This document shows, piece by piece, positions 136 to 4,742 of a stretch of 64,000 bases of DNA. This stretch comes from Arenicellales bacterium (GTDB taxonomy: Bacteria > Pseudomonadota > Gammaproteobacteria > Arenicellales > JAHEKD01): positions 1 to 64,000 of the forward strand of contig JANQSD010000002.1 of NCBI GenBank assembly GCA_028284225.1, given 5' to 3'. Numbering within the stretch: position 1 is the stretch's first letter; each line of letters begins with the position of its first letter. The position numbers were made by a program, and so were the translations under genes. The notes beneath the pieces are model-generated. The model saw only the letters and a program-made list of their open reading frames with translations, was not told the DNA's origin and made no database searches.

Positions 136-1650
136 TTAAGTAACTACCGTAAATTCACCTTGTTGAATTGAATTAGCAATCAATTCAATATCTGCAGTAA
201 GTGAATGATCATCATCGTTATCTAAAGATAACTGTTTCACTTGGTGATATATTTTTTTCATGTTATCGCCAAGCTGATCAGTTACATGTCGTAATTCAAC
301 TGCCCGCTGTGCAACTAATAATTCTATTGCACTTAGATAGCGGGAATGTTCACTGATTTTGAGCAATGCCCGGGCTGCAGTCGGGGTCGCTGTCATTGAA
401 TCCTCAACGCCATCGGCATTAATACTGGGCCAGATCGGTACCGGTTGAGCTTCATGCAACAGTTCAGCCAGTAGTGACTCCGCTGTTTTCATCAAGGGTG
501 CAAAACCATTCGAATGACTCTGGGGCTTTGCTAAAAATAGGGGTAAATCAGTGAATCGTGGTGACAACATTTTAGATATTCGAGCAAGCTGGGTCACACA
601 TAAATGAACAAAACTACGACTGACTGTTTCAATTACATTAGTTAAATGAGGACTATATAGAACACCTGCTGAAACCAGCTTTTGTAACTCAATTAACGCA
701 ACCGGATTATCACAAGTGCTGTTGAGCTCAATATTGACTGCCTGATTTGCAAAATCGAGTGCCGCATAAACTGTGCCATGAATTTGAGCGATATTTCTGA
801 TTGACAGCGGGTCTTGTAACCGGCGTGCCTGACCAGGTTCAAACAACTTGCTGCCAGCGAGTAACAGTAAAAGCTGTTTAACTGCTTCGTTTTGCCCTGG
901 TTGCGGCTTTAACGCTAACACTTGCTCATCAAACGGTAACAAGTTTGCTCTAAACCCTTCCATGGTTAATGCCGCCGCTGCTTGAGTTGCATCCAAAGCA
1001 ATATGTGCAGCCTGCAAAGCCAATGCAGATAAGCCAATGGAATAACTGAAATTATTACTTAGCAATAAGCCGTCTTTGGGGCCAAGTGCTGGCACTGAAA
1101 TCTCTGCGGCTTGTAAAATATTCTGCGCCGAATCAATGTTACCGGCTGCATCTTGCATTAATCCTTCACCAATCAATGCCTGGGCCATGGTTGCATTCCA
1201 AACCAGATCACCGGCACCAATACTGGCCTGCTGCCCCGCTACCGGCGTCAGATCAGCATTCAAACAGGCTAATAGATGGTCAGCCACAGCGATACTGGCC
1301 GCCGCTGCGCCAGGTAATAATGTATTCAGCCTGACAATCATGGCTGCACGAACTACAGCTTTGTCTTCTGGGTGACCGACAGCATGGGCACGACCGCGAA
1401 TGGTTTGATAAGAAAAATCACTTAATGCATCAGCGTCCAGGACCTCAGTCACTTTTGCGCCCAGGCCAGTAGTCACACCGTATACAGGAATTTGTTTGTC
1501 CACTGCATCATTAACCAAACTTCGGGCGACGAGCATTTGTTCACGAGCTTCAGGTGTTATGGAAAACGATGTTCGGTTATGGGCAGCTTTGTTCAACTTT
1601 TCAGCGGTGAGCGATTGTCCGTCGAGAATAAGTTGATTAAGAGCTGACAT
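136..1650 (-). CDS. Histidine/aromatic ammonia-lyase family protein lacking the MIO triad
   Basis: This 504-residue protein has the layout of the HAL/PAL superfamily. YGVTTGLG (57-64) matches the catalytic Tyr loop, IGEG (160-163) matches the conserved segment after the MIO loop, and QDPLSIRN (279-286) and NIELNSTCDNP (306-316) match core helices. Family enzymes eliminate ammonia using an MIO group made from Ala-Ser-Gly in GSVGASGDL. Here the segment reads ASIGAGDL (142-149), one residue shorter and without the Ser. The Tyr of the QDxYSLR motif is Leu282. Classical lyase chemistry is therefore doubtful; it may be a variant enzyme. It starts 5 bases after the cyclodeaminase-like gene, so the two are probably co-transcribed. 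Family membership is clear; substrate is unknown. Confidence 0.85.
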   Translation of the reverse strand: MSALNQLILDGQSLTAEKLNKAAHNRTSFSITPEAREQMLVARSLVNDAVDKQIPVYGVTTGLGAKVTEVLDADALSDFSYQTIRGRAHAVGHPEDKAVVRAAMIVRLNTLLPGAAAASIAVADHLLACLNADLTPVAGQQASIGAGDLVWNATMAQALIGEGLMQDAAGNIDSAQNILQAAEISVPALGPKDGLLLSNNFSYSIGLSALALQAAHIALDATQAAAALTMEGFRANLLPFDEQVLALKPQPGQNEAVKQLLLLLAGSKLFEPGQARRLQDPLSIRNIAQIHGTVYAALDFANQAVNIELNSTCDNPVALIELQKLVSAGVLYSPHLTNVIETVSRSFVHLCVTQLARISKMLSPRFTDLPLFLAKPQSHSNGFAPLMKTAESLLAELLHEAQPVPIWPSINADGVEDSMTATPTAARALLKISEHSRYLSAIELLVAQRAVELRHVTDQLGDNMKKIYHQVKQLSLDNDDDHSLTADIELIANSIQQGEFTVVT

Positions 1651-1655
1651 TTTAG

Positions 1656-2657
1656 TTATTTATAAACCAGATTTTGAACCAGGCCAAGGTCACGCGCCTT
1701 TTTCAGCATATAGGCGCCCAAGGCTATATCACTGGTTGCCAGACCGCGGTGCCAGAATAAAATAGTTTCATCGCTACTCTCACGTCCGGGTTTCAACCCT
1801 GCCACAATTTCACCAATTTCCGCATAAAAGCTTTGCTCACTGATTTTGCCTGCATCTATATGCGGCCTAAGTGCGCCTAAATGCCCGGCTCGCATCTGAC
1901 CTAAATCATCCATCACAAATTTATCGATCTGATCCACAAAGTCCAACGGCAAACTACTCATGGTTCCGTAGGGAATAACCAGGCTGCCCGGCTTTACCCA
2001 CTGTGTCTTAAACAATGGTGTTGGTTCGGGCAAACGAGATGCTTCGACCATTATATCTGCAGCTTCCAGACAATCTTGCCAGTTTTCTGTAGCGATCACT
2101 TTTTTGTTTAAATCCTGACTGAGCTTTTGGGCAAAAGCATTACGACTTTGTTCTCGTCTGGAATGTACCCTGATTTCATCGAAATCGAACAAATGATCCA
2201 GTAAATACACGTTCCAATAGGCCGTACCGCGAGCACCGATATGGCCGAGAACTCTAGGCTGTTCAGGTGCCAGCCATTTGGCGCCCAATGCAGTAACAGC
2301 TCCGGTGCGCATATCAGTCAGCCCTGCTGCATCAATCACCGCCTTAGGCTTCCCGGTTCGCGGACAAAACAGATTCAATAGCGCCATTTCTGAGGGCAAA
2401 TCTTGCTTATAATTATTATAGAAATCACCGACAATTTTGACACCGGCGTATTCAAGCGGAGCAACATAGCCTCGTAATACATTAAAATGGCCGTCAAATT
2501 GCGGGTCAGGGGTTAAATGCATACGTGGTTCAATCACTGTCTCACCCTTACCAGCAGCGACTAAGCCCTGCTCTACTGCACTCAAGATTTCAGCAGCCGT
2601 GAGCTTCAGTTGTTCAACTTGCGGACCACCTAGATATTCTATTTCGATGCTCTTCAT
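1656..2657 (-). CDS. Ornithine cyclodeaminase / mu-crystallin family protein (TynB-like)
   Basis: This 333-residue protein belongs to the ornithine cyclodeaminase/mu-crystallin family, which binds NAD(P) and acts on imines or amino acids. Visible are EPRMHL with Arg45, AGVKIVGD with Lys74, TDMRTGA with Arg117 and the dinucleotide-binding GHIGARGTA (138-146). The GGDCPGKTEL-type stretch carrying the catalytic Asp of true ornithine cyclodeaminases seems to be replaced near residues 227-236 by a sequence with Pro-Tyr-Gly-Thr. It resembles proteins that pipelines call tyramine oxidase subunit B. It is the first gene of an apparent two-gene unit with the lyase-like gene; its start is ATG at 2657. 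Substrate not known. Confidence 0.85.
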   Translation of the reverse strand: MKSIEIEYLGGPQVEQLKLTAAEILSAVEQGLVAAGKGETVIEPRMHLTPDPQFDGHFNVLRGYVAPLEYAGVKIVGDFYNNYKQDLPSEMALLNLFCPRTGKPKAVIDAAGLTDMRTGAVTALGAKWLAPEQPRVLGHIGARGTAYWNVYLLDHLFDFDEIRVHSRREQSRNAFAQKLSQDLNKKVIATENWQDCLEAADIMVEASRLPEPTPLFKTQWVKPGSLVIPYGTMSSLPLDFVDQIDKFVMDDLGQMRAGHLGALRPHIDAGKISEQSFYAEIGEIVAGLKPGRESSDETILFWHRGLATSDIALGAYMLKKARDLGLVQNLVYK

Positions 2658-2734: not shown

Positions 2735-3652
2735 TTAGAACTTGTCTGAAGATAGCATCTGATCAATCAGCCAAGCCTTAAAATCCATCACAATTTGGCG
2801 GCTTTGTTTATTTTTCGGAATCGTCAAACAATAGGGTTGGGAAAGTTTTAATGCATGCTCATGAATTCTAATCAGCGACCTCTCTTGCAAATACGTAGAC
2901 GCCAACATACCCTGACACAGTACAATACCAAGTCCTCCAACTGCCAAATCAATAGCTGTTTTAGAATAATTGGCTATCAAACCAGAATCTGTTTGTCCGC
3001 TCGCTGGCAAACCATTGCTTGAAAACCAATCTCTCCAACTTGGGAAAGCTGCTGATGATGGCCCCCAATCAGTATGAATGAGTGGTGCCTTCAGCAAATC
3101 ACCCGCTTGTTTAAAAGGACCGTGTTTGTTAACAAATGCCGGTGAACAGGCTGGGAAGACTGCATCTGTCATAATCGCCCGCGTCTCAATATCAGGATAG
3201 AAAAACTTGCCGTAAGTCATACGAATATCAATAGCATCTTTATCAAACGAAACCGGGTCCTCCTCGCCGCGTAGAGAAAAATCAACCTGCCCATATTGGG
3301 CGGTGAAATCCGGAATTTTCTGACTTAACCAGCCGACTGCTACCGAACTGGGTATAGAAATAACAAGCCTTCTAGCGGGTCTATTTGATTTTAATTTGTG
3401 TGCAACTTGATTTAACTCGTTAAAGGCGGTGCTGACATGTGGTTGTATTTCAAGCCCGGCCTCCGTCAAATTTATACTACGGTTGACCCGATCAAACAGT
3501 TTGCGGCCGACTTGATCTTCCAGGTTGCGAATTAATTGACTAACAGCAGCCGGGGTAATGGATAACTCCTGGGCAGCAGCAACAAAACTGCCGTTTCTGG
3601 CTGCCGCTTCGAAAGCTTGAAGTGCCTTTAATGAAAGTTTGATGCTCGCCAT
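2735..3652 (-). CDS. LysR-type transcriptional regulator
   Basis: A regulator of about 305 residues with an N-terminal winged helix-turn-helix (ALQAFEAAARNGSF, then AAVSQLIRNLED) and a C-terminal periplasmic-binding-like effector domain. It looks most like the GcvA subgroup. The frame opens with a TTG at 3664, but the ATG at 3652 gives the usual LysR N-terminus (MASIKLSLKALQAFE) and is preferred, although the GAGG just before it is very close. It lies immediately upstream of the cyclodeaminase-like and lyase-like genes on the same strand and probably controls them. The inducer cannot be read from the sequence. Confidence 0.88.
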   Translation of the reverse strand: MASIKLSLKALQAFEAAARNGSFVAAAQELSITPAAVSQLIRNLEDQVGRKLFDRVNRSINLTEAGLEIQPHVSTAFNELNQVAHKLKSNRPARRLVISIPSSVAVGWLSQKIPDFTAQYGQVDFSLRGEEDPVSFDKDAIDIRMTYGKFFYPDIETRAIMTDAVFPACSPAFVNKHGPFKQAGDLLKAPLIHTDWGPSSAAFPSWRDWFSSNGLPASGQTDSGLIANYSKTAIDLAVGGLGIVLCQGMLASTYLQERSLIRIHEHALKLSQPYCLTIPKNKQSRQIVMDFKAWLIDQMLSSDKF

Positions 3653-3845
3653 ATCCTCTACCAAGAACAGTTTTCAATTAATTACATTAAGAATCAGCTC
3701 AATATTAATTAAGATTATCTTTCCTATTGGCAATATTTTATCCTTTTTAGTTATGTAAAACTTGTGCTAATTTTTATTAATATTCTGAGGATTAACTCCC
3801 AAGAAGATCAATAGCCTGAAAGTATCTTGACTAGAGGATAAGTCG

Positions 3846-4742
3846 ATGGACTCACGTAAATTTGTTGCTTCACTAACAGCTGAACAAAAAAACTTTTTGA
3901 CAGAAAAGAATGATCTTGATGGCATTAAATCACTGATATTCCATTTCGGTGGTATCCTGGCATTCGGCAGCCTGATCATGCTGGATACAGCTCTCACACC
4001 TATTCTCATGCTTATCCAGGGTATCTTTATTATTTTTTTGTTTACGTTGCTACACGAAACCGTTCATAAATCACCCTTCGCTTCACCAATAATTAACCGC
4101 ATTGCAGGTTTAATCAGCAGCTATTTTATTTTCTTACCCGCCGAGTGGTTCAGGTATTTTCATTTTGAACATCATCGCCATACCCACATTCCCGGCAAAG
4201 ACCCGGAACTGGATGATCCCAAACCTACAAACTTGGCCCAGTATTTGATCTATGTGAGTGGCTTTCCAACCTGGTACAGCCATATTAAAACTATTTTCAA
4301 GAATGCCTTTGGCGAGCTTGACTATCGATTCATGCCTACCTCATCACATTCTAAAATACGCGGTGAAGCACGCATGATGCTTACAGTCTATGCTTTGATC
4401 TTTATTATCTCTTTGATAGCCCAATCTGCTACGCTAGTTTATATCTGGCTAATACCGGTGATACTTGGACAACCGTTTTTGCGTTTATATCTGATGGCTG
4501 AGCATGATCGCTGCCCGTTTGTGGTCAACATGTTCGAAAACACACGCACAATGTTTACCAATGCATTAGTCAGACAACTGGCCTGGAACATGCCGTATCA
4601 CGTGGAGCATCATACTTATCCCAGCGTTCCTTTTCATAAGTTGCCTGAATTACATCGATTAATAAGAAACTACTTAGTGGAAACAGAGAAGGGATATACC
4701 CGATTCAGTCAGAAATATATTGAGAGTTTAGGGGACGCTTAA
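3846..4742 (+). CDS. Membrane fatty acid desaturase family protein
   Basis: A 298-residue integral membrane di-iron protein. Three histidine boxes are present: HETVH (70-74), HFEHH (106-110, followed by RHTH) and HVEHH (252-256), plus HDRCP at 220. These define the FA_desaturase superfamily, which includes acyl desaturases, carotenoid ketolases and related hydroxylases. Hydrophobic stretches near 30-70, 85-100 and 175-215 place the boxes on the cytoplasmic side. The MFS gene follows 65 bases downstream and may share its transcript. The substrate cannot be fixed from the motifs. The upstream LysR gene is divergent, so they share an A+T-rich control region (3653-3845). Confidence 0.85.
   Translation: MDSRKFVASLTAEQKNFLTEKNDLDGIKSLIFHFGGILAFGSLIMLDTALTPILMLIQGIFIIFLFTLLHETVHKSPFASPIINRIAGLISSYFIFLPAEWFRYFHFEHHRHTHIPGKDPELDDPKPTNLAQYLIYVSGFPTWYSHIKTIFKNAFGELDYRFMPTSSHSKIRGEARMMLTVYALIFIISLIAQSATLVYIWLIPVILGQPFLRLYLMAEHDRCPFVVNMFENTRTMFTNALVRQLAWNMPYHVEHHTYPSVPFHKLPELHRLIRNYLVETEKGYTRFSQKYIESLGDA

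Follow-up and report, generated by a model that had tools for sequence, protein, structure and literature searches.

A PF00221 lyase homologue without the MIO triad, proposed as a betaine/trimethylamine lyase, beside a cyclodeaminase-like gene in an Arenicellales bacterium

The lyase gene and its neighbours

The window, i.e. the whole stretch of 64,000 nt that was analysed (contig positions 1-64000), opens with a gene of the aromatic amino acid lyase family, and the genes and codons discussed here are collected in Table 1. Since the lyase gene sits 135 bp from the contig end, everything downstream of it is lost, and no hut genes were found near it in the sequence that the window retains. The frame starts with ATG and contains no internal stop codon. 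Its product covers positions 1-465 of the 466 of profile PF00221 at 343 bits (gathering cut-off 27.3), and it falls below the curated cut-offs of the HutH equivalog TIGR01225 (280.7 bits, cut-off 539) and of the aminomutase models TIGR04475 (188 bits, cut-off 800) and TIGR03832 (177 bits, cut-off 501); the NCBIfam search matched no dedicated model for MIO-less lyases. Two ordinary MIO lyases are encoded elsewhere in the same genome, outside this locus, so the window lyase is a paralogue rather than the hut enzyme. A third PF00221 protein of this genome (L002, C8:83402-84760) is divergent and not orthologous to HutH, with a normal ASG triad and NQDKVSM replacing QED.

Table 1. Coordinates of the genes and codons discussed, as positions in the window
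Feature	Position	Strand	Basis
MIO-less aromatic-amino-acid-lyase-family enzyme (PF00221), 504 aa; proposed betaine/trimethylamine lyase	136..1650	-	profile search, PDB match, tree, fold, alignment
Ornithine cyclodeaminase/mu-crystallin family (OCD) protein (PF02423), first gene of probable two-gene operon	1656..2657	-	PF02423, 169.6 bits
LysR-family regulator	2735..3664	-	profile search
PF00487 desaturase/hydroxylase-family membrane enzyme	3846..4742	+	profile search
Shortened MIO loop codons, A142-S-I-G-A-G-D-L149	1204..1227	-	counted from ATG at 1650, read back from sequence
Q279-D-P-L282-S-I-R285 codons, Leu replacing MIO-enzyme Tyr	796..816	-	counted from ATG at 1650
Lys388 codon; residue common to ergothionase and most MIO-less proteins, absent from MIO enzymes	487..489	-	counted from ATG at 1650

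The adjacent cyclodeaminase-like gene named in the initial annotation is real; it lies 5 bp upstream of the lyase gene and runs in the same direction. Its ortholog group is sharply bounded: of the 84 plasmid records, 83 reach at least 60% identity, and no additional ones appear down to E 1e-50; a looser group, at 46%, occurs in some genomes of the same order. Throughout the group an invariant Arg stands in the Rossmann glycine loop (G141-A-R143) and the usual GAD Asp is missing. Due to the replacement of the Rossmann Gly by Arg143 and the absence of this Asp, the protein is unlikely, judging from its motifs, to be a true ornithine cyclodeaminase. At many plasmid loci a PF12974 phosphonate-type binding protein gene directly follows the OCD gene.

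A search for homologues that combine the short loop with a neighbouring OCD gene, as the initial annotation had suggested, revealed a widespread clade and many loci with both genes. In nearly all OCD loci seen a PF00221 lyase is close by, usually of the MIO-less type. Two plasmid loci pair the OCD gene with a MIO-bearing HutH (L070, Comamonadaceae; L073, Rhodococcus), two further loci hold it with a urocanase and no lyase (L081, L082), and four MIO-less lyases have no OCD gene within the sequence stretch examined (L042, L044, L055, L056). Histidine-utilisation clusters recur among the OCD loci (L053, L054, L070, L074, L077-L079, L081, L082). Seven urocanases from OCD-linked loci were tested, and all seven scored as plain HutU, which rules out thiourocanate hydratase as the neighbouring urocanase there.

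Some of the remaining neighbours recur as well. The LysR gene likewise flanks the OCD-lyase pair in Rhodobacteraceae, and a homologue of the PF00487 enzyme lies by the lyase gene in several relatives of the same order; CoA ligase and enoyl-CoA hydratase genes also accompany the lyase in relatives of this order. At loci L050, L052, L053, L054 and L056 a PF00487 homologue directly adjoins the MIO-less lyase gene. The window's own PF00487 gene bears a weak likeness to the guanitoxin arginine hydroxylase GntB. Rhizobium operons with the lyase carry genes for a glycine-betaine-type (OpuAC) binding protein, a CoA-transferase, an SDR and a MaoC protein, and some lyase relatives are flanked by a YeiH-family gene, annotated in Rhizobium as a putative sulfate exporter.

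The shortened loop and the MIO-less clade

As the initial annotation had read it, the loop of the window lyase (ASIGAGDL) is one residue short and lacks the triad Ser: SIGA-GDL stands against S(V/L/A)GASGDL in 25/25 MIO homologues compared. All 41 MIO-less relatives aligned, from many genera, share this one-residue deletion. The reading of Leu282 (QDPLSIR) as a replacement of Tyr likewise held, position 282 being Leu, Ile or Val in the 41 MIO-less proteins and Tyr in 25/25 MIO enzymes; Lys388 is present in 39/41 of the former and in none of the 25 latter. A sequencing error or a pseudogene is ruled out by the intact frame together with the same length change in 41/41 relatives, which agrees with the earlier view of a protein under selection. 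That the window lyase has lost the MIO triad is well supported by the alignment, and the standard chemistry is excluded, as had been claimed, since without the triad the usual route to MIO is closed. Ala-Ser still precedes Asp in 10 of the 41 relatives, where the Gly is gone; what the clade as a whole has lost is one triad residue, Ser not always being the missing one.

In this fold Tyr57 is the catalytic residue, Gln279, Arg285 and Glu416 are substrate-binding residues, and Glu416 is typical of histidine lyases; all four are invariant in the 41 MIO-less proteins. The side-chain pocket differs from those of ergothionase and the histidine lyases because position 87 is Arg and not His.

By sequence, the PDB entry closest to the window lyase is 6s7j (E 3e-51), the ergothionase of Treponema denticola. 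There the loop, SIGEGDI, shows the same one-residue shortening and has no modified residue, whereas MIO entries carry one in this place. A structure model of the window lyase was made, again following the initial annotation (pLDDT 88.6, pTM 0.91), and its top fold match was 6s7j (VIA Z 43.3, TM 0.90). As this Z ties with those of MIO enzymes sharing the fold, the fold confirms the superfamily only, and the closer kinship comes from the sequence and the tree. In a tree computed with the loop columns left out, the window lyase, ergothionase and the Rhizobium-type proteins fall on one side with support of 100/99.9, and all MIO-less proteins fall on one side with support of 94/82. Thus kinship with ergothionase is well supported by sequence comparison, and a single loss of MIO in the clade would fit this tree, although it is not proven.

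Homologues are present in the same order and in other genomes from Gammaproteobacteria, Rhodobacteraceae, Rhodovibrionaceae, Kiloniellaceae, Parapusillimonas and Acidimicrobiales; plasmid-borne ones occur in Rhizobium, Martelella, Paracoccus, Azospirillum, Sinorhizobium, Streptomyces, Paraburkholderia and Polaromonas. The records examined label MIO-less lyases as histidine ammonia-lyase or as aromatic amino acid lyase. The window lyase and ergothionase both belong to a large group of bacterial proteins, most of which are misnamed. Within it we regard the window lyase as a new subfamily of a kind already known, with a proposed activity and substrate, and the literature searched named no MIO-less lyase that has an OCD partner. 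A second, very divergent MIO-less type adjoins the same OCD gene at six loci (L058:455-1954, L059:9953-11461, L077:7818, L078:12252, L079:13555, L080:1910); it has the loop GHGMAA-DA or GHGFAA-DG and the motif QAPIS, QAAIS or QSPLS, and its position in the tree, on a long branch, is unsure.

Metabolic setting and proposed reaction

The genome encodes a homologue of trimethylamine monooxygenase (Tmm), which scores 708 bits to bacterial FMO and matches 5ipy and the Tmm entry 6kbw. Glutamine-synthetase-like and glutamate-synthase-like genes lie beside it, arranged as one would expect for the N-methylglutamate pathway; their family matches are below cut-off, and they probably encode enzymes of that pathway. 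The surrounding region (L093, C14:147000-166000), which also holds an ammonium-transporter gene, looks like a probable cluster for trimethylamine use. Among 194 related genomes, Tmm is found in 18/21 with a MIO-less lyase and in 31/173 others, and by genus in 9/10 and 8/106, respectively, where some lyases of one genus (g3) were taken as MIO-less from OCD adjacency and sister species and not read. This association is partly phylogenetic, shared ancestry contributing to it, and serves as support, not proof.

The genome also has a complete canonical hut gene set. Its sole PF01175 urocanase scores 969 bits as HutU (cut-off 375) and 689 as thiourocanate hydratase (cut-off 930), so that no thiourocanate hydratase was found on testing this single PF01175 protein. 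A search for EgtD gave no good candidate: the single PF10017 match is weak, at 30 bits, and the presence of EgtD in this genome is accordingly unlikely.

Taken together, the window lyase is probably an active MIO-independent betaine eliminase of the ergothionase kind, which would release an N-methylated amine, probably trimethylamine; we infer catalysis, leaving group and substrate alike. The suggestion of a variant lyase in the initial annotation is thereby supported, both by the clade shared with ergothionase and by the retained active-site residues. The glycine-betaine-type binding protein of the Rhizobium operons, the hut genes frequent at OCD-linked loci and the co-occurrence of Tmm with MIO-less lyases point towards betaine elimination as well. 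The substrate would be a betaine, i.e. an N-alpha-trimethylated amino acid, of histidine or a similar amino acid. Because a quaternary amine leaves readily as it is, MIO may be dispensable in the window lyase. Tyr57 would act as the base that takes the beta-proton, Arg285 and Gln279 would bind the carboxylate, and the side chain would be held and activated by Lys388, Glu416 and the Arg87 that replaces the His of histidine lyases; the products would be trimethylamine and an alpha,beta-unsaturated acid. For the OCD partner, a substrate from this same family of compounds is probable. Among single substrates hercynine (histidine betaine) is tentatively put first, because it would yield urocanate, which this genome can process; hercynine is favoured over ergothioneine because thiourocanate hydratase and a convincing EgtD are both lacking. 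Urocanate would then enter the ordinary hut pathway, and trimethylamine would be consumed via Tmm and the probable N-methylglutamate-pathway enzymes.

Other readings have to be weighed against a hercynine-type betaine lyase. Arg87 with its altered pocket, the lack of hut genes near the lyase in the retained sequence and the two plasmid loci that combine the OCD gene with a MIO-bearing HutH all count against that lyase. CoA-transferase, MaoC and SDR genes, or CoA-ligase and enoyl-CoA-hydratase genes, at some related loci fit an acrylate other than urocanate, and together with the replacement of the imidazole-binding His by Arg87 they would suit a lyase for the betaine of a non-histidine aromatic amino acid, e.g. 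tryptophan or tyrosine betaine, whose acrylate is degraded as a CoA thioester. This appears unlikely, as the histidine-lyase-typical Glu416 is retained in 41/41, hut genes recur more often as neighbours of the OCD group, and no such CoA genes adjoin the window lyase. We judge it distinctly improbable that the enzyme is ergothionase proper, converting ergothioneine, or its sulfonate bound by Arg87, into trimethylamine and either thiolurocanate or the corresponding sulfonate: sequence, tree and fold all make ergothionase the nearest of the characterised relatives, Lys388 and Glu416 are common to both and a YeiH-family gene flanks some relatives, but identity is only 25% in the structural alignment, His83 has become Arg87, the one urocanase of the genome is a canonical HutU, and the genome has no thiourocanate hydratase.

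Readings outside betaine elimination fare worse. The non-catalytic partner of the OCD protein considered in the initial annotation would agree with the pairing of the two genes in a single operon in many genomes and with the unusual OCD motifs themselves; this pseudoenzyme is very unlikely given the invariance of Tyr57, Gln279, Arg285 and Glu416 in 41 proteins and the MIO-less lyases at L042, L044, L055 and L056 that stand apart from any OCD gene in the stretch examined. Aminomutase chemistry requires MIO, and the aminomutase-like enzyme also envisaged there is unlikely, since MIO is absent and the scores lie below the TIGR04475 and TIGR03832 cut-offs. Formation of the electrophile after all, from a shortened Ala-Gly-Asp or Ala-Ser-Asp loop, finds its argument in the Ala-Ser kept by 10/41 relatives and is extremely improbable: the triad Ser is missing in the window lyase, Tyr280 is replaced throughout, and the solved relative of equal loop length carries no modification.

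Beyond the single enzyme, it is a serious possibility, though short of probable, that the betaine lyase proposed here belongs to a broad, so far unrecognised MIO-free family which would convert betaines of histidine and others, i.e. N-methylated amino acids, to trimethylamine, with an OCD-fold partner catalysing a new, non-cyclodeaminase reaction. If these proteins are betaine lyases, a whole pathway from methylated amino acids to trimethylamine in soil and marine bacteria is being overlooked, and the MIO-less clade would be a clean experiment of nature on the working of this fold once its familiar cofactor is gone.

Comparison with known enzymes

Ergothionase, a trimethylamine-lyase with a solved structure, is the only characterised MIO-less relative; it works without MIO and releases trimethylamine (PMC13405746). 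The T. denticola enzyme (6s7j/6s7q) resembles the window lyase in its fold, its MIO loop one residue short, the Leu of QDPLS and the Tyr base, and the residues pair as Tyr57/Tyr53, Leu282/Leu277, Lys388/Lys383 and Glu416/Glu411 (window/ergothionase). It differs in the low identity noted above, in occupying its own separate branch and in having His83 where the window lyase has Arg87, and the genome of the window has no thiourocanate hydratase. On a plasmid of Polaromonas sp. JS666, a gene between a YeiH-family gene and an OCD gene (L069:6276-7895) encodes a protein 39% identical to T. denticola ergothionase; it is annotated merely as an aromatic amino acid ammonia-lyase and is a candidate true ergothionase.

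Histidine ammonia-lyase HutH (PF00221, TIGR01225) shares the fold, Tyr57, Gln279, Arg285 and Glu416 with the window lyase, which in contrast has neither the Ala-Ser-Gly triad nor Tyr280 and carries Lys388 and Arg87 where HutH has Val386 and His83. Tyrosine and phenylalanine aminomutases likewise share the fold (Z 42.6 and 40.6), but they are MIO enzymes, whereas the window lyase has no MIO triad. The OCD protein, for its part, is like ornithine cyclodeaminase, alanine dehydrogenase and iminosuccinate reductase (PF02423) in family, length and the conserved Lys74 and Arg117, whereas it scores far below every curated equivalog cut-off and its group is set apart by its sharp boundary, the Arg in place of the Rossmann Gly and the lack of the GAD Asp.
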